Below are positions 4,083 through 29,221 of a stretch of DNA of 64,000 nt, one piece after another. This DNA comes from Robiginitomaculum antarcticum DSM 21748. GTDB lineage: Bacteria > Pseudomonadota > Alphaproteobacteria > Caulobacterales > Maricaulaceae. Below the pieces are notes generated by a model. It did no database searches. It was given only the letters and a program-made list of their open reading frames with translations, and had not been told where the DNA came from. The DNA lies in contig NZ_KB823011.1 in the NCBI RefSeq assembly GCF_000365025.1, forward strand, positions 702,621 to 766,620. Reading direction: 5' to 3'. Position 1 is the stretch's first letter, and every line of letters starts with the position of its first letter. The position numbers and the translations under genes were made by a program.

Positions 4083-4315
4083 TTTAAATCCTCTGGCTTC
4101 CATAGTATCCACAATTTTATCGTTGGCTCCGGCCTCCCAACCGACGCCACCCACATACTACTTATAGGGAACTTGCATGTTCTTATTTATAGTATAATTG
4201 AGAGTATCACGCCGGGGTTTTAAATGTAAAGTCATCCAAGCATAGCACTAAAAGCTTCGCCCTTTGCGAAACTGGTAACATGGAGAACCGAGAACTTGAT
4301 TTTATCAAACGTTGC

Positions 4316-5713
4316 TCAACCAATGAAAATTCTAGACGAAAATGGGTGAGTTATTTTCAGTAACTCATCACGTCGATACTCCATTGAACCGCCATCACCG
4401 TAGGCAGGCCGGTCATTCTTGTGCCCCATTAACAAACATCGCAAAGCGTAATCAATATTCGCTTCTTGCATGCGTTTCTCAAATGCATGGCGGAGAGAAT
4501 AGATTACATGGTTCTTCGTCGGCAATAGGTCCCGGTTACGAAAAGCCTTGATGAGATTAGCTGAGACAAGAGTCCCCCTGCCCCTATATTTCTCAAAACC
4601 ATTTGGAGTTAGCTTCATAGCTTCTAAGGCCACGCCAACAAGCGGAATTTCGCGCTCTGAATCAGGTGTCTTTAACTCTCGGTCATCTCTTGGGCGTATA
4701 GATATAAACGGGATTTGCTCTTCCATTTTAATATCTTCTGGCATGAGGTTACAAATCTCACTCATACGTGCCCCAGTTTCTATGAGAACATATATCATAA
4801 CTTTTAAATCTAGATTGAGGCCATCAAAGAGGCCGGGCACAAGTATACGGTCTCGCACCCACTCATTTTCAAAAGCTTCTACAGATGACTTGCTGGTCCC
4901 TGTGAAATGCATATTTCGGAATGGGTTCAGTCTGTCTTCGTCACCAATATATTTGTAGTAGGCTCCATAAAGCCCTCGAATATTTCCAAGATGCCGATTG
5001 GCAGTGTTTGGCTTTATCCCGCGCTTACCGTTCTTATTGGTCTTCATCCGGGTTCGCCACCAATCTTCATATTTCAACGCATGCTTCCGAGTAATTTCGT
5101 CCATATTGAGGTCACCCATCACCTCAATAAAATAGTCTCTTGATGTCCGCTTTACTTTCTTCCAGCTATAGAGCTGATCGGCATCTTTGTTATATTGGTC
5201 ATCAAATGATATCTTCTCAAGATATAACTCAAAAGCTTCTGAGACTCTCATCGCAGTATGAACGGGTTTCTTTATAGCCCCCAAAAGCGAGTCAGTGACA
5301 TGCTCAGTCGCTACCCCTTTTGGCCCTGCGGTTTGCTCTAGGTGATTCAGCCTCTCTAATATTTCCTGTGTCGTGCCATCCTTTGCAAGTACGTCAGTGG
5401 GTATGTAAGCGAAGCCCAGAGCTAACGCGCGTGAAGCGGCGGCTAAGTGTCGTTTTTTTTCAACTTCACGCGTGGCAGCGCTTACGCCGCCATTGGCTGC
5501 AGATTCGACGCATAGTACTTGCCAGAAAGCGTTATCCGCAACCTCTAAGGCGTCACGCCTGACCCTGGCGTCTTGCAATGAAACTGTCTTAAGGGAGTGC
5601 CGTATTAGCGCACGAGGCTCTACATGTTTGAATCGCTTAGGTGGGCGCCGATTATAATACCAGCGCTTACCCTTTAAGAGTAAAAATCTATCTGGGTCAG
5701 ACGCCTTAGACAT
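4316..5713 (-). CDS. tyrosine-type site-specific recombinase (phage/island integrase)
   Basis: Catalyses integration or excision of a mobile element. The protein is 465 residues from ATG 5713; a TTG at 5752 would add 13 residues encoded by short direct repeats and is less likely. The N-terminus (RFLLLKGKRWYYNRRPPKRF) resembles the DUF6538 domain common in alphaproteobacterial integrases; a SAM-like core-binding domain follows. In the C-terminal catalytic domain I see the first Arg in ETGARMSEICNL, the box II Arg in YSLRHAFEKRM (the usual first His is Tyr), a His in LMGHKN, and a candidate nucleophile Tyr in the following YGDGGSMEYRRDE. It is transcribed away from tRNA-Asp, whose 3' end is 127 bases upstream, the usual arrangement for a tRNA-targeting integrase. 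No obvious ribosome site precedes either start. Confidence 0.88.
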   Translation of the reverse strand: MSKASDPDRFLLLKGKRWYYNRRPPKRFKHVEPRALIRHSLKTVSLQDARVRRDALEVADNAFWQVLCVESAANGGVSAATREVEKKRHLAAASRALALGFAYIPTDVLAKDGTTQEILERLNHLEQTAGPKGVATEHVTDSLLGAIKKPVHTAMRVSEAFELYLEKISFDDQYNKDADQLYSWKKVKRTSRDYFIEVMGDLNMDEITRKHALKYEDWWRTRMKTNKNGKRGIKPNTANRHLGNIRGLYGAYYKYIGDEDRLNPFRNMHFTGTSKSSVEAFENEWVRDRILVPGLFDGLNLDLKVMIYVLIETGARMSEICNLMPEDIKMEEQIPFISIRPRDDRELKTPDSEREIPLVGVALEAMKLTPNGFEKYRGRGTLVSANLIKAFRNRDLLPTKNHVIYSLRHAFEKRMQEANIDYALRCLLMGHKNDRPAYGDGGSMEYRRDELLKITHPFSSRIFIG

Positions 5714-5718
5714 AGTGT

Positions 5719-5751
5719 TTGTGTGCAAATTTGTGTGCAGTTTTGTGTGCA
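5719..5751. repeat. three direct 9-bp repeats at a 12-bp period before the integrase
   Basis: TTGTGTGCA occurs at 5719-5727, 5731-5739 and 5743-5751, exactly 12 bases apart. The repeats lie between the integrase ATG and tRNA-Asp. They may be arm-type integrase binding sites or an autoregulatory operator; alternatively they are coding if translation begins at TTG 5752. This is inference from position and periodicity. Confidence 0.6.
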
Positions 5752-5778
5752 AGTTTTGCGCTACACATAGACATAAGA

Positions 5779-5805
5779 AAACCTCAGTTCTAAAAACTGA
5801 GGTTT
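5779..5805 (-). terminator. rho-independent terminator after tRNA-Asp
   Basis: A 9-bp perfect stem (AAACCTCAG / CTGAGGTTT) with a 9-base loop is followed on the minus strand by TTTTCTT. It is 35 bases beyond the tRNA-Asp 3' end and separates it from the integrase gene. Confidence 0.7.
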
Positions 5806-5839
5806 ATCATGCACTTATCAATCTGTCCATTCCGAAAAA

Positions 5840-5916
<77 letters not shown>

Positions 5917-6088
5917 GCAAATCATTGCGCTTAGCGAGCGCGCTTACTAGCCGCGCCCTATAGACCCGTCAACACGGATTCACGTTTGTTATGCAGAAAA
6001 CTCATCTTTTATGAGACAAAATTTCTGACAGGTTGAAAGCCCTGAAGGGCAATCAATTTATAAAAATTTCAGGAAGATGTTTTGAAAA

Positions 6089-6164
6089 TGGTGGGCGGTA
6101 ACGGGTTCGAACCGCTGACCCTCTCGGTGTAAACGAGATGCTCTACCAGCTGAGCTAACCGCCC
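6089..6164 (-). tRNA. tRNA-Val (TAC)
   Basis: 76 bases with encoded CCA. Acceptor GGGCGGT pairs with ACCGCCC, D-stem GCTC/GAGC, anticodon loop TTTACAC (anticodon TAC), T-loop TTCGAAC. It lies 60 bases downstream of lon on the same strand and upstream of tRNA-Asp. A short GCCC/GGGC hairpin lies beyond it near 6044, without a clear T tract. Confidence 0.97.
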
Positions 6165-6225
6165 CCATGGACGAAGACGCGCTATATCGCCCGTGTCTGA
6201 TTTTTGCAACGCCTTTTATGCAGAA

Positions 6226-8631
6226 TTAATGCGCGACAACATTTCCCGTACCGCCTTCGCTGCGGCTGATAATGCCAGCCAGATCAGCGGCGTCCTGCGC
6301 CGTCCATTCAATCGCCGTAATCGGCGCGACAAGCGCATGTTTCAAGACTTCATCGACATGGCTAACCGGGATGATAGTCATACCTTTTTTGACATTGTCA
6401 GGCACGTCCGCAAGGTCTTTTTCATTCTCCTGCGGGATGATAACCGTTTTCACACCGCCGCGTAGAGCCGCCAGCAATTTCTCTTTCAATCCGCCGATCG
6501 CCGTGACGTGACCACGCAAAGTCACCTCGCCGGTCATGGCGATGTCTTTTTTGACTGCAATGCCGGTCAGCACAGATACAATCGCCGTGGTCATGCCGAT
6601 CCCGGCGGACGGCCCGTCTTTGGGCGTAGCTCCGTCCGGGACATGAACGTGAATATCAGTGCTGCGGAAGGTCCGCGGACTAATACCAAATTCAGGTGCC
6701 CGCGATTGCACATAGCTATTGGCCGCGCTGATGGATTCTTTCATCACGTCTTTCAGGTTACCTGTGACTTTCATCATGCCTTTACCGGCCATGGAGACCG
6801 CTTCAATGGTTAGAATGTCGCCGCCGGTTGAGGTCCATGCCAGGCCCGTCACAACGCCGACGCGGTCATCTTTATCGGTCTCGCCGAATTTAAATTTGCG
6901 AACGCCCAGATAGTCGCCAAGCACTTCAGGCGTAATCGTGACGGATTTAAAATCTCCGCCGACAATCTTGCGTAGCGCTTTGCGCGACAGGCTGGCCAAT
7001 TCGCGCTCCAGCGAGCGCACGCCCGCTTCGCGCGTATAATAACGCACAATATCGCGAAGTGTCGCATCTGTAATATCCAGCTCGCCTTTTTTAAGGCCAT
7101 GATCTTTGATCTGTTTGGGAATTAAATGACGTTTCGCAATCTCGACTTTTTCGTCCTCAGTATAGCCCGGGATACGGATAATTTCCATGCGGTCCAGCAA
7201 AGGCTGCGGCATGTTCAGGCTGTTCGCCGTTGTGATAAACATGACATTGGAAAGGTCGTAATCGACCTCCAAATAATGATCATTAAACGTGCTGTTTTGT
7301 TCCGGATCTAAAACCTCCAATAGGGCGGAGGACGGGTCACCGCGAAAATCGCTACCCATTTTGTCGATCTCATCGAACAGGAACAGCGGATTATTATGCT
7401 TGGCTTTTTTCATGGACTGGATAACGCGTCCGGGCATAGAGCCGATATAAGTGCGGCGATGCCCGCGGATTTCACTCTCATCACGCACGCCGCCCAGCGA
7501 CACACGCACAAATTCACGGTTGGTCGCGCGCGCAATCGAGCGCCCAAGGGATGTCTTGCCTACGCCCGGAGGGCCGACAAGACACAGAATCGGGCCTTTA
7601 AGTTTTTTGGTGCGGGTCTGCACAGCCAAATGCTCGATAATACGCTCTTTGACTTTTTCGAGGCCGTAATGATCCGCGTCCAGAATATCCTGTGCTTTGC
7701 CCAGATCTTTCTGCGTGCGCTTGGTTTTTCCCCACGGCACGGAGAGCAGCCAATCCAGATAATTGCGGCTGACATTAGCCTCGGCGCTCATCGGGCTCAT
7801 CTGTTTGAGCTTTTTGATCTCAGCATCAGCTTTATTGCGCGCTTCTTTGGTCAGCTTGGTTTGCTCAACTTTCTCAACAAGCTCGCCAATTTCGTCATTG
7901 GCTTCTTCACCGCCGCCAAGCTCAGTTTTAATCGCCTTCATTTTTTCATTGAGATAATATTCGCGCTGCGTTTTTTCCATCTGGCGTTTAACGCGGCCGC
8001 GGATTTTCTTCTCAACCTTGAGCACGCTGATTTCGCCATCCAGCAATGTAAATATTTTTTCCAGGCGTTTGGATACGGACAACTCTTCGAGCAGGGTCTG
8101 TTTCTGGTTCATTTTGACGTTCAAATGCACGGCGACAACATCGGCCAGACGCGACGCAGACTCGGCCTCAGCTACTGAGGTCGCAACCTCCTCGGCAATT
8201 TTTTTGTTCAGTGAGACATAGCTCTCGAAATGTTCGGTGACACTGCGCATCAGCGCTTCGGTTTTAGACGGCGCTTCATCGATATCGACAAGCGGCTGAG
8301 CAAACGCTTCGAAATAATCATCATTATCGGTAAATTTGTCGACCTGCGCGCGCATCTCACCTTCGACCAGCACGCGAACCGTGCCGTCAGGCAGCTTAAG
8401 AAGCTGCAAGATCGTGGCAATACAGCCCTTGTGATGAATATCATCAATTGTCGGATCATCATCCTTGGCGCTTTTCTGCGTCAGAAGGAAAATCCGTTTT
8501 TCGGACTTCATAACTTCTTCCAGAGCTTTGACGGACTTATCGCGCCCGACAAAAAGCGGCACCACCATATGTGGAAACACCACGATATCGCGGAGCGGAA
8601 GAACAGGAAGGCAGATTGGCGCATCACTCAT
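6226..8631 (-). CDS. lon: ATP-dependent Lon protease
   Basis: Cytosolic AAA+ serine protease that degrades misfolded and regulatory proteins. The start is ATG 8631 ([20 protein letters not shown]), the usual Lon N-terminus; an upstream in-frame extension overlaps clpX and does not look like Lon. The 801-residue protein has the N-terminal substrate domain (about 10-200), a coiled-coil linker, Walker A GPPGVGKT, Walker [12 protein letters not shown], and the C-terminal protease domain with Ser675 in DGPSAGIG and the Lys of GGLKEK. Length matches the family. It is the last protein gene of the tig-clpP-clpX-lon series, 94 bases after clpX. Confidence 0.98.
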
Positions 8632-21200: not shown

Positions 21201-21244
21201 GGGAGGCTCCCCTTTAATGTGTCTTGAATTTCGTTATCCAACTG

Positions 21245-21264
21245 ATATGCACTTAATTGCATAT
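21245..21264. promoter_or_regulatory. 20-bp palindromic operator candidate, site 2
   Basis: ATATGCAC-TTAA-TTGCATAT, an 8-4-8 inverted repeat with one mismatch, in the 85-base divergent spacer between the thiolase ATG (21200) and the AtuA start (21286). A single dimer here could control both operons. Same family as the sites at 13092 and 26710. Confidence 0.7.
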
Positions 21265-21285
21265 AATCAAGGGGAACTGCATCAA

Positions 21286-23082
21286 TTGAGCGCGACGCAT
21301 CAAAATGTGAAGATTGGCGGCGCCAGCGGCTATTGGGGCGAGAGCGCTATGGCGACCCCTCAACTCCTCGCTTCGGGCGGGCTGGATTACATCGTTTACG
21401 ATTATTTGGCCGAAATCACGATGTCGATTCTCGCCCGCGCTAAGGCCAAAGACCCCGCCAAAGGCTATGCCACGGATTTTGTCGATTATGTGATGAAACC
21501 CTTTCTGCCGATGATTGCAAGCAGCGGCGTGAAAATCATCGCCAATGCGGGCGGCGTTAATCCGCAAAGCTGCGCCGAAGCTGTCCGCGCACTCATTGCC
21601 GAAAAGGGCCTCAATTTGAAAGTCGGGATCGTCACTGGCGACGACTTTATGCCAAATAAAGAGGCTATAGCAGCGGAAGGTTTGACCGATATGTTTAGCG
21701 GCGCGCCCTTCCCACCCGTTGATACAATCATGAGCATTAACAGCTATCTCGGTGCATTTCCTATCGCAAAAGCGCTGGATATGGGCGCGGATATTATCAT
21801 CACAGGCCGCTGCGTCGATAGCGCGGTGACACTTGGCGCGCTAATCCATGAATTTGGCTGGCGTGAGACCGATTGGGACAAGCTGGCCAGCGGATCACTC
21901 GCCGGACACATCCTTGAATGCGGGCCACAAGCCACGGGCGGCAACTTCACCGATTGGGAAGCGGCGGGCGATATCGTCAATATCGGCTACCCCATCGCGA
22001 TATGCAGCGAAGACGGCAGCTTTGACGTGACGAAGCCCGAAGGCACAGGCGGGCTCGTCAGTGTTGGCACCGTGTCCGAGCAAATGCTCTATGAGATTGG
22101 CGATCCGCGCAGTTATATCCTGCCGGACGTGGTCTGCGATTTTTCAAATGTTGAGATATCACAGATTGGCAAAGACTGTGTTCATGTTAGCGCCGCACAT
22201 GGCCTGCCTGCCCCGCCAGCTTATAAAACCTGCATGACCTATATGGACGGCTATCGCGCAGGTACATATTTGACGCTTTATGGCGCTCGCGCTGATGAAA
22301 AAGCCCAAAAACTTTGCGATGCCGCCTTTGCACGCGCCCGCAAAACAATGGCCATGTTTGGCCTTGGTGATTTTACCGAGACATCCGTCGAAATTATCGG
22401 TGCAGGCAGTCAGATGGGGGCGCCGCGCAGCAGCGATGAAGTCGTTGCGAAAGTGGCCGTCAAACATCCTGACATGCGCGGGGTCGGCATATTTCTCAAA
22501 GAGCTGGCGGGCATTGGCCTCGCCACCCCGCCCGGACTATCAGGCTTCACAGGCGCAGGCCGCCCGCGCCCCTCACCCGTTGTGAGGCTGTTTTCCTACC
22601 TCAACCCTAAAGACGGCGTTCAGATCACGATTGATGTCGACGGGCAAACACAGAGTTTCGAAGATCGCGTTCAGCCGCCCCTGCTCGATGAAGGCCATGG
22701 CCCGACGCCGAAAAATGTGGCAGATGCTAGTCTTGAAATCCAGCTTATCAAACTCGCCTTTACCCGCTCAGGCGATAAAGGTGACACAGCGAATATTGGC
22801 GTTATTGCGCGCAAACCGGACTACCTCCCTTATATCTGGGCAACGCTTACGCCGGAATATATTGCAAACCATTTCAGTCACTTCGGCGCAACACCTGAGT
22901 CTATAAGTCGATTTTACATGCCCGGCGCACACGCCATGAACATCCTGATCAACACCGTTTTAGGCGGCGGCGGCGCGGCGAGCCTTCGAAATGATGCTCA
23001 AGCGAAAGGCTATTCCCAAATCCTTTTGAATGTTCCAATCAGCGTTACTGAAGACATCGCAAAGCAAGTTGGACTCAATTAA
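21286..23082 (+). CDS. AtuA-family protein (acyclic terpene utilisation, DUF1446) with C-terminal AtuA-like domain
   Basis: 598 residues from TTG 21286, chosen because AAGGGG lies before it, because the family begins shortly before the IGGASGYWGES motif, and because a start further upstream (ATG 21247) would place the operator inside the gene. The large N-terminal domain (about 1-450, IGGASGYWGES, NAGGVNPQSC, ITGRCVDSAV) is the AtuA/DUF1446 domain. Residues about 490-598 form the separate AtuA-like domain with the motif RSGDKGDTANIG. The biochemical role of AtuA is not established; in Pseudomonas it is encoded with geranyl-CoA carboxylase. The carboxylase ATG overlaps its stop by one base (TAATG), so the two are probably made together. 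Confidence 0.9.
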   Translation: MSATHQNVKIGGASGYWGESAMATPQLLASGGLDYIVYDYLAEITMSILARAKAKDPAKGYATDFVDYVMKPFLPMIASSGVKIIANAGGVNPQSCAEAVRALIAEKGLNLKVGIVTGDDFMPNKEAIAAEGLTDMFSGAPFPPVDTIMSINSYLGAFPIAKALDMGADIIITGRCVDSAVTLGALIHEFGWRETDWDKLASGSLAGHILECGPQATGGNFTDWEAAGDIVNIGYPIAICSEDGSFDVTKPEGTGGLVSVGTVSEQMLYEIGDPRSYILPDVVCDFSNVEISQIGKDCVHVSAAHGLPAPPAYKTCMTYMDGYRAGTYLTLYGARADEKAQKLCDAAFARARKTMAMFGLGDFTETSVEIIGAGSQMGAPRSSDEVVAKVAVKHPDMRGVGIFLKELAGIGLATPPGLSGFTGAGRPRPSPVVRLFSYLNPKDGVQITIDVDGQTQSFEDRVQPPLLDEGHGPTPKNVADASLEIQLIKLAFTRSGDKGDTANIGVIARKPDYLPYIWATLTPEYIANHFSHFGATPESISRFYMPGAHAMNILINTVLGGGGAASLRNDAQAKGYSQILLNVPISVTEDIAKQVGLN

Positions 23083-24704
23083 TGCCCGTTTATAAGTCCA
23101 AGATTAATACGTCCTCTGATCGGTATAAGAAAAACCGCACCGATATGCTGGCATTAATTGATCGCCTGTCCGAGCTTAACGCCCGCGCGCCCGCGCTCTC
23201 GGCCAGCAAAAAAGACCGGTTTGAAAAACGCGGGCAACTCTTACCTCGTGAACGTTTGGGCCGCCTGCTTGACCCCGGCATGCCCTATGTCGAGATCGGT
23301 AATCTTGCAGGCTATTTACAGGACACCAAGAAAGAGGCGCGCAGCATTCCCGGCTCAACCATCATGGCGGGGATTGGCTATATTAGCGGCGCTCGGTGCG
23401 TGATTGTCACAGATGATAGCGGCATTAAAGCCGGCGCACTGACGGTTGGCGGCGGCTATCGTCTTCAGCGCGCCCAGGAAATTGCGCTGGCGCAAAAGCT
23501 TCCCTTTATTCATCTCGTCGAGAGCGCGGGCGGGGATCTGATGAATTATACCGTCGAGGGGTTTTTCCAAGGCGGGACGCTCTTTGCCAATCTGGCGCGC
23601 CTGTCCAAAGCAGGCATTCCGGTGATCTCTATTTTGCATGGCAGCTCGACCGCGGGCGGCGCTTATATGCCCGGCCTGTCCGATTATGTCATTGCAGTGA
23701 AAGGCGGCGGTAAGGCCTTCCTTGCCGGGCCGCCTCTGCTCAAGGCCGCAACAGGTGAAATCGCGACCGAAGACGAGCTGGGCGGCGCGGAAATGCACGC
23801 GACAGTCTCGGGCCTTGCCGAATATCTGGTCAATGATGACGGGCAAGCCGTCGCCCTGCTCCGCGATATTATCGATAACCTGGACTGGCCATCGCGGTCA
23901 CCAAAAGCTGGCGAAATTCTAGTTGACGACCCCATTTATGACTCCGACGAAATCGCGGGCATTGTCCCGACGGATTACAAAGTCCCTTATGATGTCCGCG
24001 AAGTTGTCGCCCGGATTGTTGACGGCTCTGACTTTACCGATTTTAAAGCCAATTACGGCGTTTCCACGGTCTGTCTGCAAGCGAGCATATTCGGCTATCG
24101 CGTTGGACTTATTGGTAATAACGGCCCGATTGACACACAAGGCGCAACCAAGGCCGCGCAGTTCATACAGCTTATGGATCAGGCTGATACGCCCGTTATC
24201 TTCCTGCAAAACACCACTGGATATATGGTCGGGACGCAATTTGAGCGTGCCGGCATGATCAAACATGGCAGCAAGATGATACAGGCCGTCACCAATATGA
24301 GCGTGCCACGCATTACCCTGATGATTGGCGCTAGTTTCGGCGCAGGTAATTACGGCATGTGCGGCCGCGGATATGACCCTGACTTTCTGCTGACATGGCC
24401 CAATGCCAAATCCGGCGTGATGGGCGGTGAGCAGGCCGCAACTGTTATGAGCATTGTGGCTGAGGGCCGCGCAGAACGCAGCGGCGTAGAAATCGATCCA
24501 CAAATCGCCGCGCAGCAAAAAGCTATGCTCACTCATATTTTTGATAGTCAGTCGGATGCGTTTTATACCTCCGGCCATTGTCAGGATGACGGCATGATTG
24601 ACCCGCGCGATACCCGCAAAGTGCTGGGCTTTCTGCTCGCCACCGTCTGGGAAGGCCGCCGCAAAAAGGTCAAAGACAACAGCTTTGGCATAGCGAGGAT
24701 GTAA
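23082..24704 (+). CDS. acyl-CoA carboxylase beta subunit (carboxyltransferase; geranyl/methylcrotonyl-CoA type)
   Basis: Transfers CO2 from carboxybiotin to an acyl-CoA. The 540-residue protein has both halves of the carboxyltransferase fold, with a CoA-site motif GSSTAGGAYMPG in the first half and ASFGAGNYGMCGR in the second, as in methylcrotonyl-CoA and geranyl-CoA carboxylase beta subunits. It follows AtuA (one-base overlap) and precedes an enoyl-CoA hydratase by 2 bases, an order seen in atu-type clusters. No biotin carboxylase/BCCP alpha subunit is present in the window, so it must pair with one encoded elsewhere. Assignment to geranyl- versus methylcrotonyl-CoA is not possible from sequence alone. 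Confidence 0.95.
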   Translation: MPVYKSKINTSSDRYKKNRTDMLALIDRLSELNARAPALSASKKDRFEKRGQLLPRERLGRLLDPGMPYVEIGNLAGYLQDTKKEARSIPGSTIMAGIGYISGARCVIVTDDSGIKAGALTVGGGYRLQRAQEIALAQKLPFIHLVESAGGDLMNYTVEGFFQGGTLFANLARLSKAGIPVISILHGSSTAGGAYMPGLSDYVIAVKGGGKAFLAGPPLLKAATGEIATEDELGGAEMHATVSGLAEYLVNDDGQAVALLRDIIDNLDWPSRSPKAGEILVDDPIYDSDEIAGIVPTDYKVPYDVREVVARIVDGSDFTDFKANYGVSTVCLQASIFGYRVGLIGNNGPIDTQGATKAAQFIQLMDQADTPVIFLQNTTGYMVGTQFERAGMIKHGSKMIQAVTNMSVPRITLMIGASFGAGNYGMCGRGYDPDFLLTWPNAKSGVMGGEQAATVMSIVAEGRAERSGVEIDPQIAAQQKAMLTHIFDSQSDAFYTSGHCQDDGMIDPRDTRKVLGFLLATVWEGRRKKVKDNSFGIARM

Positions 24705-24706
24705 AG

Positions 24707-25522
24707 ATGAGCCTGCCTGAAACGACTAAAGTCCTGACTACGCTGGATCGCGGCTGGCTGACCGTTACGCTGAACTCACCGGAAAACCGCAATGCGTTGT
24801 CAGCAGAGCTGACGGCAGAGTTAAGCGCTGTGCTCGATCACTGTCACAACAATTACGATATTCGCGGCATCACCCTGCGCGGCGCAGGCGGAACATTTTG
24901 CGCAGGCGGCGATCTGAAAAGTTTCGGCAAAATCTTATCCGGCGGCGGGGATCACGACGCCGTCAAAGCCATGAACTGCGCAGGCGGAGACCTGTTTACA
25001 AAGATCGAGGCCCTGCCCCAAGTCGTAATTGCCTATGTTGAAGGCGCGGCGATTGCCGGCGGACTGGGGATGATGTGCTGCGCCGATATCATTGTCGTGC
25101 ACACGGATGCCAAATTTGCGCTCACAGAAACCGCGCTGGGCATTGTGCCCGCGCAAATCGCGCCCATCGTCGTTGCCCGCGTAGGAATAGCCACCGCGCG
25201 GCGGCTTATGCTGACGGCGGCGCGCTTTACAGGAGCGCAGACCAAAGAGGCCGGCCTGTCGGATTATGTCGTGAGTCATGAAGGCGAATTTGACGAGATA
25301 GAGCGCGACATAAGAACGGGCGTGCTGTCCTGCGCGCCGCGCGCCAATGCCCTGACGAAAGAAATTTTACTCGCCAGCCGCGACATGCCGCGCGCTGAAC
25401 TGCTGGATTATGCGGCTGATAAATTCGCTGACGCCATGCTGTCCGATGAAGGCAAAGAGGGTATTATGAGCTTTGTGACCAAACAAAAACCGTCATGGGC
25501 CGCGCAGAGCGGTGAGGATTAA
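24707..25522 (+). CDS. enoyl-CoA hydratase/isomerase family protein
   Basis: 271-residue crotonase fold. The oxyanion-hole segments GTFCAGGDLKSFG and EGAAIAGGLGMMCCADI are clear; the region around ALTETALGIVPAQIAP carries one of the usual acidic positions. In atu and liu pathways the hydratase follows the carboxylase and acts on an isohexenylglutaconyl- or methylglutaconyl-CoA, which fits the gene order here. It starts 2 bases after the carboxylase stop and ends 1 base before the next start. Confidence 0.94.
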   Translation: MSLPETTKVLTTLDRGWLTVTLNSPENRNALSAELTAELSAVLDHCHNNYDIRGITLRGAGGTFCAGGDLKSFGKILSGGGDHDAVKAMNCAGGDLFTKIEALPQVVIAYVEGAAIAGGLGMMCCADIIVVHTDAKFALTETALGIVPAQIAPIVVARVGIATARRLMLTAARFTGAQTKEAGLSDYVVSHEGEFDEIERDIRTGVLSCAPRANALTKEILLASRDMPRAELLDYAADKFADAMLSDEGKEGIMSFVTKQKPSWAAQSGED

Positions 25523-25523
25523 A

Positions 25524-26336
25524 ATGATGATGCAAGACCTCAGCCGCGCCTTTAACATTGAATGTCACTCTATCGCCGATCTGCTCGAAAATCACCGCGA
25601 GGATATTTTCAGCACGGTCACCTTGTTCAAAGGCTGGACGATAGGCGATATTATGGCTCATCTTCATTTGTGGAATATCGCGGCCGATATGACCCTAAAT
25701 GAACCTGATAAATTCCAGAGCTTCATGATGAAAATGATGAGCGCTCTGGTTGGCGGGCAGTCTCATATCGCTTTGCAAAACGCCTATTTCGGTAAGCAAT
25801 CCAAAGCGCAAATTTTCGCGGCATGGCAGAGCCGATGCGAGGATATAGCGCAGACATTTGCGCAGGCCGACCCCGAGGCGCGGGTGAAATGGGCGGGGCC
25901 GGATATGAGCGTCAAAAGCTGTATCATTGCCCGCCAGATGGAGCATTGGGCCCATGCCCAGGCTATTTTTGACGCGCTCGGCGTGGAGCGCAAAAACGGG
26001 CCTCGCCTCAAAAATATCGCCCATCTGGGCGTCACTACCTATAGCTGGAGCTTTAAGGTCAACCAAATCGCGCCGCCCTTGCCTAAACCTTATGTGCGCC
26101 TGAACGCGCCGGGTGGCGAGATATGGGAATGGAACGACAAACAACTGGATAACCGCGTGACAGGAACGGCCGAGCAGTTCTGCCAAGTCGTCACCCAATG
26201 CCGCAATATCGCAGATACAGAGATTAAAACGATCGGCGATACGGCGCGCAAATGGATGGAGATCGCCCAATGCTTTGCCGGCGGCGCAGAGACCCCTCCC
26301 ACTAAAGGCTCGCGGCACCTTTACTCAGAGCCCTAA
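25524..26336 (+). CDS. TIGR03084-like metal-binding protein (DinB/maleylpyruvate isomerase fold)
   Basis: 270 residues from ATG 25524, with GAGG before it; an earlier ATG at 25512 overlaps the hydratase. The N-terminal four-helix part shows GWTIGDIMAHLHLWN, and HWAHAQAIFDALG later supplies further His residues, the layout of the DinB/MDMPI metal-binding fold. The C-terminal part (about 160-270) matches the wyosine-base-like half of TIGR03084 proteins. Members of this family often sit beside AtuA genes, but their reaction is not known to me. It ends the plus-strand operon. Confidence 0.85.
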   Translation: MMMQDLSRAFNIECHSIADLLENHREDIFSTVTLFKGWTIGDIMAHLHLWNIAADMTLNEPDKFQSFMMKMMSALVGGQSHIALQNAYFGKQSKAQIFAAWQSRCEDIAQTFAQADPEARVKWAGPDMSVKSCIIARQMEHWAHAQAIFDALGVERKNGPRLKNIAHLGVTTYSWSFKVNQIAPPLPKPYVRLNAPGGEIWEWNDKQLDNRVTGTAEQFCQVVTQCRNIADTEIKTIGDTARKWMEIAQCFAGGAETPPTKGSRHLYSEP

Positions 26337-26399
26337 CGCCGCCGGAACGCTCTGGCGCAATTCAAACTTCTGCACCTAACCTGTCGCATTACGCGGCAA

Positions 26400-26711
26400 T
26401 TATTCCATACAATAGACGTAAAGCGGCAATTTATACTTTGCGAGTTTCCCACCCAGATATGCTAATACCGTTTCAAGCGGCAGTTCTACACCCGGCTTAA
26501 TCACCGCGCGAATGCAGCCCGCCTCGCCCCAGTCATGGGCATAGGGCCGGATTTCGGTTTTGATGCAGCCTGCCACCATTTCGCGAAAGGCGCGGCGCTC
26601 CTCTGTGTCAAATGGGTGCACCAACACGGCGTAATCTCCCCATCCGCCGCCATTTTGATGGCATGTCAGATTATATTTTGCCTTTACATTCTTTGCGGAT
26701 GGCGGTTTCAT
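26400..26711 (-). pseudogene. chimeric remnant: acyl-CoA dehydrogenase N-terminus joined to acyl-CoA ligase C-terminus
   Basis: An intact 103-codon frame from ATG 26711. Residues 1-30 are unrecognised (contains CHQNGGGWGDY). Residues about 30-64 (FDTEERRAFREM, KTEIRPYAHDWGEAG) are a typical acyl-CoA dehydrogenase N-terminal helix. From about residue 65 (IRAVIKPGVELPLETVLAYL, KLAKYKLPLYV) it matches the extreme C-terminus of AMP-forming acyl-CoA ligases. Neither enzyme could work. The simplest reading is a deletion scar that fused the ends of a lost dehydrogenase and a lost ligase gene. It sits at the end of the catabolic operon and its ATG overlaps palindrome site 3. Expression as a small protein cannot be excluded. 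Confidence 0.65.
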
Positions 26712-26729
26712 ATGCAACTCTTTTCATAT
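26710..26729. promoter_or_regulatory. 20-bp palindromic operator candidate, site 3
   Basis: ATATGCAA-CTCT-TTTCATAT, the same 8-4-8 layout with one mismatch in the right arm. It is 19 bases before the nitroreductase ATG and overlaps the start of the chimeric remnant on the other strand. The left arm is identical to site 1. Confidence 0.65.
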
Positions 26730-26748
26730 GAATTTTACCGGAGCCGAT

Positions 26749-27411
26749 ATGAGTCTCACTGATATTCTTGCCTCGCGCTACTCTGTGCGCGGCTTTCTGC
26801 CTAAGCCCGTCCCTCAGAAGGAACTGGAGGATATATTCGCAGCGGCGCAGATGTCGGCGTCTAATTGCAATACCCAGCCCTGGCAGCCTTTGGTGGTGTC
26901 AGGCGACAAGGCCAAAACTGTCTCGAGTGCCATGCTGGCCGAGATCATGAGCGGCACAGCGCCATATCCTGACTTTGAATGGAATGTAAAATACCAAGAC
27001 GAGCACCGCACACGCCAGTTCGGCAGCGCCAATGCGCTATATTCCGCCATGGGAATCGCGCGCGAAGACAAACCGGCGCGCAATATGGCGATGGGCCGTA
27101 ACTGGCAATTTTTCGGTGCGCCGCACGCCATCTTTTTTACAATGGAAAAATATCTGGGCATTATGGGAGCCGTTGATGTTGGCATCTACGCGCAGACCCT
27201 GTCTCTGCTAATGAAGGAGCGCGGCATTGATAGCTGTATGCAGGGCGCGCTGGGTCAATTCCCCGGCCCCGTTAAAGAGATATTTGATGTCCCTGAGGAG
27301 CGCGGCATCCTCTTTGGCATGAGCTTTGGCTATGCCGATCCTGATCATTCGGCCAATCAAGCGCGGACAGACCGTGCACCCCTGGGCGATAGCGTCCGAT
27401 TTGAAAGCTAA
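26749..27411 (+). CDS. nitroreductase family protein (FMN)
   Basis: 220 residues from ATG 26749, preceded by GGAG at 7 bases; ATG 26728 is in frame but inside the palindrome. The N-terminus SRYSVRGFLPKPVP and SASNCNTQPWQPLVV are the FMN-binding signature of the NfnB-like group; the closing part (GILFGMSFGYAD) is normal. Reduces nitro compounds, quinones or enoates with NAD(P)H; physiological substrate unknown. Control by site 3 would tie it to the CoA-ester island. Confidence 0.93.
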   Translation: MSLTDILASRYSVRGFLPKPVPQKELEDIFAAAQMSASNCNTQPWQPLVVSGDKAKTVSSAMLAEIMSGTAPYPDFEWNVKYQDEHRTRQFGSANALYSAMGIAREDKPARNMAMGRNWQFFGAPHAIFFTMEKYLGIMGAVDVGIYAQTLSLLMKERGIDSCMQGALGQFPGPVKEIFDVPEERGILFGMSFGYADPDHSANQARTDRAPLGDSVRFES

Positions 27412-27505
27412 GCAGCGAAAGCTGAATATAACTATTGACGGCGCGCGCGATGAGAGGCAAATCGCGCGCACTACTATGGTATCACTTTGATATCGATTGC
27501 ATCGT

Positions 27506-27590
27506 GCGGGTGTGGCGGAATTGGTAGACGCGCCAGATTTAGGTTCTGGTATCGAGAGATGTGGAAGTTCGAGTCTTCTCACCCGTACCA
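27506..27590 (+). tRNA. tRNA-Leu (TAG)
   Basis: 85 bases with encoded CCA. Acceptor GCGGGTG pairs with CACCCGT, the anticodon stem CCAGA/TCTGG holds the loop TTTAGGT (anticodon TAG), a long variable arm follows (class II), and the T-loop is TTCGAGT. No strong terminator is visible after it; an AT-rich imperfect palindrome lies near 27617-27640. Confidence 0.97.
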
Positions 27591-27772
27591 TTCGCAGACG
27601 CTTCGCGCAGCGAATAATTTAATCCAGTGAATTAAATCAAGTCGTAGAATGCCCCGGCAGTGGCCTTCGCTCTGACTGTCTTCTGCTGTAAGGCCAATTT
27701 GGCATTAATAGATAAATCGCTCAACAAAAGTGCCGCAATGTTGTCACGCCCTAGCCGTAGGACAGCGGCGGA

Positions 27773-29221
27773 CTAACTCTTGCGCGCGGTCATTGGCGCT
27801 TTGTGAAGCGTCCAGTACCGCGCAAGTAATCCTGATACAATATTAGCGATTGCTATGCCGATAAATGCGCCCATCATGCCGCCATAATTCACGCCCAGCG
27901 CCACAAGCGGAGCGTAAAGAACGAGTGAGCGGATGATGGTAAAAGCTAGGCCATAGAACGGACGGCCCAATGCATTATATCCGGCCGCCGTGACGAAGAC
28001 AAAGCCATATCCAGCGATCGTTATCGGCACGATCCAGAAATAAGATTTCGCCAGAGCGTACACTTCAGGATCATTTGTAAACAAGCCCGTGATCGGCCCG
28101 GCCAGTAGCGCCAGGACAACGGCCATTCCCGTGCTCCAATAGATGCAAATGCGGTAGCTCACGCGAAAAGCTTCTTCCACGCGGTCTGTCCGTTTGGCGC
28201 CTCCATTCTGCCCTATGACAGCCCCGATACAGGCCGATAAGCCATAAAGCAGACCCACAGAGATTAGCTCGGCGCGGCTGACTAATGTGAAAGCCGCATT
28301 ATAAGTGTCACCGCCCTCGCGCGTAACTGCCGCAACGGCTACCATTGCACCGACCGGGACAATCACATTTGTCACAGCCGCAACAGCTCCAACCTGGGCA
28401 ATGACGCCCCAGGCATGGCGGATGGAGGCAAAGGTCATTTTGGCGAAAGACACCGCCTTGCGCCTGAACTGCACAATGTACAAGCCGAATATGGCCGCGA
28501 CCGTATTGCCGAAAACGGTGGCAATCGCCGCGCCCTGAACTTCCAGTCTGGGGAACGGCCCCCAGCCGAATATAAGGAAAGGATCAATAATGATATTCAG
28601 CAGCGCGCCCAAAATCATGATAGCGCTTGGCAGTATAGCCTCGCCACCAGCCCTTAAAATATTGTTTGAAATCATAGAGATAGAGACAATAACTAATCCA
28701 GGCAGAGAGATTGCCAGATAAGTCGTCGCCATCTCCCGCGCCTCATCCTGCGCGCCTAGCAAATCAAGCGATATAGGCAGAGTGAACCAGATAAGGGCTG
28801 TCACCAGCGTCATGACGCATATTGCAAAGAGTATTGCCGCCGCGCCGTGGCGGGCTGCGCGCTGGCTGTCTCCGCCCCCTATGGCGCGCGACAGAGCGCT
28901 CATCGTCCCTGCGCCAAGGCCTATATTCACGCTATTGCCGAAGAATGTCAGCGGATAGGCAAACCCAACAGCGGACAGCGCCAACACGCCAAGCGCCGCA
29001 GACCCGTCGGCGGCGGTCAGATTTCCCAGATAGATTGTATCGACAATACCGGCAGACAGCAGCGCGATCACAGCAATCGCAAACGGGCCAAGCATACGCA
29101 GGATATGTCCCTGCACCGGGCCTTTCGTCAGATCGATCTTTCCCTTGCCGCTTGTCACGGGCGGCATAACGGCTTCAGGCAGAACCGCTGCGAGCTTTTC
29201 CTCTAAAGTCCCGTCACTCAC
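27773..29221 (-). CDS. MATE-family efflux transporter
   Basis: 482-residue inner-membrane antiporter exporting drugs or metabolites with Na+ or H+. The sequence has a polar N-terminal tail of about 35 residues, then about twelve hydrophobic segments in two halves, with the repeated family pattern (PFAIAVIALLSAGIVDTIYLG early; matching GAMVAVAAV in the second half). Starts at GTG 29221, 3 bases after the malic enzyme stop, so probably co-transcribed with it. Substrate unknown. Confidence 0.9.
   Translation of the reverse strand: MSDGTLEEKLAAVLPEAVMPPVTSGKGKIDLTKGPVQGHILRMLGPFAIAVIALLSAGIVDTIYLGNLTAADGSAALGVLALSAVGFAYPLTFFGNSVNIGLGAGTMSALSRAIGGGDSQRAARHGAAAILFAICVMTLVTALIWFTLPISLDLLGAQDEAREMATTYLAISLPGLVIVSISMISNNILRAGGEAILPSAIMILGALLNIIIDPFLIFGWGPFPRLEVQGAAIATVFGNTVAAIFGLYIVQFRRKAVSFAKMTFASIRHAWGVIAQVGAVAAVTNVIVPVGAMVAVAAVTREGGDTYNAAFTLVSRAELISVGLLYGLSACIGAVIGQNGGAKRTDRVEEAFRVSYRICIYWSTGMAVVLALLAGPITGLFTNDPEVYALAKSYFWIVPITIAGYGFVFVTAAGYNALGRPFYGLAFTIIRSLVLYAPLVALGVNYGGMMGAFIGIAIANIVSGLLARYWTLHKAPMTARKS

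Follow-up and report, generated by a model that had tools for sequence, protein, structure and literature searches.

Introduction

Short-homology-dependent illegitimate recombination and replication slippage are a significant cause of variability in bacterial genomes (PMC2884548). The genomes of Helicobacter pylori carry pseudogenes and gene fusions created by insertions and deletions, with short direct repeats among the causes (PMC3046158). The acyclic terpene utilization (Atu) pathway of Pseudomonas includes a dehydrogenase, AtuD, and an acyl-CoA synthetase, AtuH (PMC4847356).

Here, we describe a locus in a window of 64,000 nucleotides from the marine alphaproteobacterium Robiginitomaculum antarcticum DSM 21748 (contig NZ_KB823011.1, positions 702,621 to 766,620) that is almost certainly a two-gene pseudogene, left by a deletion of about 2.4 kb that removed most of an acyl-CoA dehydrogenase (ACAD) gene and most of an AMP-forming ligase gene. 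As in other short-homology deletions (PMC2884548), the direct repeats are shorter than RecA needs and one copy is left, although here the repeat is imperfect in a living relative and two genes were fused in frame. Comparison of related genomes revealed both decay and accidental fusion, just as in Helicobacter pylori (PMC3046158). Those cases are mostly frameshifts, however, whereas most of two genes was removed here. The locus belongs to an island with AtuA-, AtuC- and enoyl-CoA hydratase-like genes, which resembles the Atu pathway but differs from it in gene order. The lost pair comprises the same two kinds of enzyme as AtuD and AtuH, which makes a corresponding role a candidate by likeness (PMC4847356).

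An open frame of dual origin

The open frame runs on the minus strand and is listed mechanically at 26717-26400, with 105 codons when counted from a TTG and 103 codons when counted from the ATG at 26711 (remnant open frame, 26400..26711, with the stop TAA at 26402-26400). The first-pass annotation had proposed a single chimeric frame, and because both halves match genes of relatives this proposal holds, with the minus strand to be added. An ACAD start of about 37 residues and a C-terminal stretch of about 43 residues from an AMP-forming ligase overlap at the joint, the former at residues ~31-69 of the frame and the latter at residues 61-104. The ACAD half is 45-57% identical to full-length ACAD open reading frames (ORFs) of relatives, with E-values down to 3.5e-10, and the ligase half is 61% identical to the end of the ligase ORF in the sister genome G002 (E 5e-13). 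The better-matching ORFs of the relatives have ~380-490 codons for the ACAD and 508-573 codons for the ligase and are separate from each other. Thus, both halves are real.

A separate search of the halves with protein profiles, as had been suggested, found both families with weak scores. Acyl-CoA_dh_N (PF02771) matched with its positions 1-31 at E 0.0048, below the gathering score, and the acyl-CoA synthetase profile PRK07470 with positions 466-506 at E 3.6e-4. The AMP-binding domain PF00501 was not found in the remnant by the Pfam search, and a search of the PDB with the remnant gave one ACAD structure at E 0.039. The weak curated-profile and structure scores are due to the shortness of the remnant pieces. 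The weak profile scores could also be taken to mean that a chance open frame resembles both families by accident, but the matches of 1e-9 to 1e-13 are to full-length genes, which several genomes carry on a single contig and in the expected order, and the DNA alignments to G002 reach E 5e-30 and 2e-21. We therefore reject chance similarity, whose probability is negligible in view of the genome-level matches and the colinear sister locus. A scan of positions 24000-29000 against Rfam gave a tRNA as the sole match.

An intact pair of genes in a sister genome

G002 is an uncultured Robiginitomaculum MAG of the same genus and colinear with the window. Its locus (L023) bears an intact 381-residue ACAD and an intact 517-residue ligase with the nitroreductase gene on one side and the TIGR03084 gene on the other, arranged and oriented as in the remnant. 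This is the intact pair that the first-pass annotation had proposed to look for at this place. The two genes are 15 bp apart on the strand opposite to the nitroreductase gene, and both are full-length by Pfam with all family domains present, including all three of the ACAD. The order in G002 is nitroreductase, ACAD, ligase, TIGR03084, enoyl-CoA hydratase, AtuC-like carboxylase and AtuA. Gene order and relative orientations are the same in the window, where the remnant occupies the position of the ACAD-ligase pair. Identities to G002 are 84% for the nitroreductase, 64% for the TIGR03084 protein, 82% for the enoyl-CoA hydratase, 91% for the carboxylase and 80% for AtuA.

Three other genera (G031, G029 and G032) likewise have the ACAD and ligase genes side by side, in G031 just beyond a run of AtuA, AtuC, enoyl-CoA hydratase and TIGR03084 genes. 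It follows that the pair is ancestral and that the window shows the derived, deleted state. As none of 80 named nitroreductase loci in other genomes has an orthologous ACAD-ligase pair alongside, except that of G002 itself (L037, on the same contig), the nitroreductase-beside-pair arrangement appears specific to the genus, as judged from these gene neighborhoods. The comparison of the full orthologous locus rests on one genome of the same genus, G002; in a closer relative within the genus, G003 (81% identity in TIGR03084), the contig ends inside the TIGR03084 gene before reaching the site.

At the DNA level, one alignment to G002 covers 283 nt from the nitroreductase start through the leader into the ACAD start (71% identity, E 5e-30). 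The ACAD of G002 begins at a GTG homologous to the one at 26627 of the window, reading VLTNPFD in G002 and VLVHPFD in the window, and the native ACAD start is accordingly most likely the GTG at 26627, as far as can be told from the alignment. The ACAD 5' end (VLVHPFDTEERRAFREMVAGCIKTEIRPYAHD) would comprise 32 codons from this GTG (26532..26627, minus strand), supported by protein and DNA alignments. It follows that the first 28 codons of the 103-codon frame (26628..26711, minus strand), which align with the G002 leader up to its GTG start, are leader DNA read through in frame. The 103-codon frame of the first-pass annotation hence exists, but its first 28 codons lie outside both proteins. If anything is translated, the product would be a 75-residue peptide from GTG 26627 to the TAA at 26402.

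The deletion junction

The two origins meet at TGGGGCGAGGCGGG (26518..26531, minus strand), the kept copy of a short direct repeat common to the ACAD (from codon 33) and the ligase (from codon 444). Reading the minus strand as ...GCCCATGAC|TGGGGCGAGGCGGG|CTGCATTCGC..., the ACAD extends through the 14 bases of the box and the ligase from the box onward. The parental boxes in G002 are TGGGACGAGGCGGG at offset 96 of the ACAD and TGGGGCGAGACAGG at offset 1329 of the ligase. They are identical at 11 of 14 positions, and both sites read W-x-E-x-G in the same frame. Similar sequence thus stands at both ends of the deletion, and the single copy TGGGGCGAGGCGGG is retained. Between the two G002 genes, 147 of 1,745,953 pairs of 14-mers match at 11 or more positions (8.4e-5), a frequency for a length of 14 that was picked after the site had been seen. 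Compared with the G002 pair, the remnant misses about 2,394 bp (G002 coordinates 4099 to 6493).

We propose that the ancestor had a minus-strand ACAD-ligase operon between the TIGR03084 and nitroreductase genes, in an Atu-like (acyclic-terpene-utilization-like) catabolic island. Two short direct repeats, nearly identical and coding for W-x-E-x-G in either gene (TGGGRCGAGRCRGG), would have been the end points of a deletion of about 2.4 kb that took away the ACAD from codon 33 to codon 381, the spacer of 15 bp and the first 443 codons of the ligase. Both repeat copies would have been in the same reading phase, leaving an open joint. Since the offsets 96 and 1329 are both multiples of three, the reading frame was preserved across the joint. 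A deletion between short direct repeats thereby accounts for the position of the junction as well as for the open frame. The sequence at the joint suggests that slippage or recombination at short homologies produced the deletion, and the ancestral repeat, 11/14 in G002, may have been perfect. The junction repeats could in principle also mislead an assembler into collapsing two intact genes, and we judged the locus from the assembly. An assembly or sequencing artefact is nevertheless very unlikely, as the imperfect 14-bp repeat is far too short for a collapse, the assembly comprises 5 contigs with 100% completeness, and the downstream stops and changes of conserved residues described below are signs of decay that an artefact would not be expected to bring.

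Decay of the remnant

After the deletion, the leftover gained stops and lost conserved residues, and it is probably not maintained. The ligase 3' end, including its decayed part after the stop, occupies 26335..26517 on the minus strand and aligns with the G002 ligase end over 197 nt (70% identity, E 2e-21). The premature TAA (26400..26402, minus strand) replaces a sense codon of functional ligases, coding for L in G002 and mostly for E in the others. Past this stop, the similarity to G002 runs for about 65 nt more, to 26335, as far as the TIGR03084 gene, beside which the final G002 ligase codons and the spacer are missing in the window. In this stretch a TAG (26376..26378, minus strand) stands in place of the invariant Lys of the ligase C-terminal motif [NG]-[AG]-[TS]-G-K, which is K in 7/7 functional copies. 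Besides this Lys, three invariant residues are changed in the ligase part and one in the ACAD part. Of the full ACAD domain set, only PF02771 positions 1-31 are left, and the domains with the FAD site and the catalytic base are gone. The disabling changes therefore include the loss of the catalytic domains as well as two stops, TAA and TAG, within the tail of the ligase.

In the ligase half before the stop, derived changes at codon positions 1/2/3 number 5/4/4 in the remnant and 0/0/3 in G002, both small counts. In the ACAD half they number 2/2/1 against 3/1/3, with few sites in a short stretch, and on their own these counts do not indicate relaxed constraint. A new small protein, in which the 75-residue fusion is translated and functions, for example, by regulating CoA enzymes or acting as a decoy for them, would agree with the frame being open from the native GTG, with the purine-rich, ribosome-binding-like GGGGAG and the conserved palindrome retained upstream, and with the partly persisting likeness of the remnant to relatives. 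However, each domain is represented by a short piece without a catalytic core, the derived changes of the ligase half are flat across codon positions, and the decay runs on into the part after the stop. Because the ligase-end DNA similarity extends beyond the stop, the locus has the look of a broken gene rather than of a small protein. Moreover, a fusion spanning both halves occurs in none of 61 relatives and in none of 249 sampled genomes of the order, where a search at E 1e-9 gave matches to the ACAD half alone and none to both halves. The conservation of the fusion in many genera, which the first-pass annotation had named as evidence against a deletion, is thus absent. We regard a new small protein as highly improbable and presume that the remnant is without any function.

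Flanking genes and a conserved palindrome

The remnant lies between a TIGR03084 family protein gene (25524..26336, plus strand; profile E 9.7e-82) and a nitroreductase family protein gene (26749..27411, plus strand; PF00881, E 2.1e-24). A palindrome, TTCATATGCAACTCTTTTCATATGAA (26707..26732), separates the remnant from the nitroreductase gene and is kept nearly entirely between the window and G002, amid a less conserved leader. The nitroreductase ORF as listed, from 26728, begins inside the palindrome, and the gene more likely starts at ATG 26749, which is preceded by CCGGAG. ATG 26711 of the remnant frame also sits inside this palindrome, in the former intergenic region. A related TATATGCAAACAGTTGCATATA is found upstream of the ACAD in G032. 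As a DNA hairpin, the palindrome has a z of -4.8. It is probably the operator of divergent promoters, retained despite the loss of the ACAD. That this ACAD promoter and operator still drive a 75-residue chimeric peptide with a selected role in a single species is, in our estimate, barely credible. A regulon search for the palindrome in the genome gave one further near match, which is not before a recognizable relevant gene. About 20 kb from the remnant, a 478-residue minus-strand ORF (4316-5752) reads as a putative phage-type tyrosine integrase.

Consequences for the catabolic island

The Atu-like island itself (21205-25522), with AtuA, carboxylase beta and enoyl-CoA hydratase, has no gene for the biotin-carboxylase alpha subunit. 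This subunit is inside the island in G031, and its closest counterpart in the present genome, at G000:C1:906577, is 59% identical.

The genome contains six PF00501 and nine PF02771 genes, and none of the six PF00501 genes lies within the window. An orthologue of the lost pair is absent elsewhere in the genome, where the best identities are 33% for the ACAD and 30% for the ligase, compared with 57-77% among relatives. We considered a paralogous backup of the pair in the same genome and rejected it at these identities. The six PF00501 genes all lie outside the window and include no orthologue, so the deletion explains the lack of a ligase in the island, in line with the earlier suggestion, which had likewise attributed the frame to a deletion of most of two genes, now supported by the intact G002 pair, the junction of dual origin and the stops.

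A deletion pseudogene of this type is ordinary gene loss of the textbook kind, and its reconstruction is unusually clear by virtue of the intact sister genome. The locus also carries a warning for annotation, which may list the pseudogene as a short hypothetical protein and place its start wrongly. A single event explains both the absence of the ligase and the odd open frame, making the locus a clean case of gene loss. In this species, an Atu-like pathway is predicted to lack one entry step, the activation of the acid and its first oxidation, and to have kept the rest.
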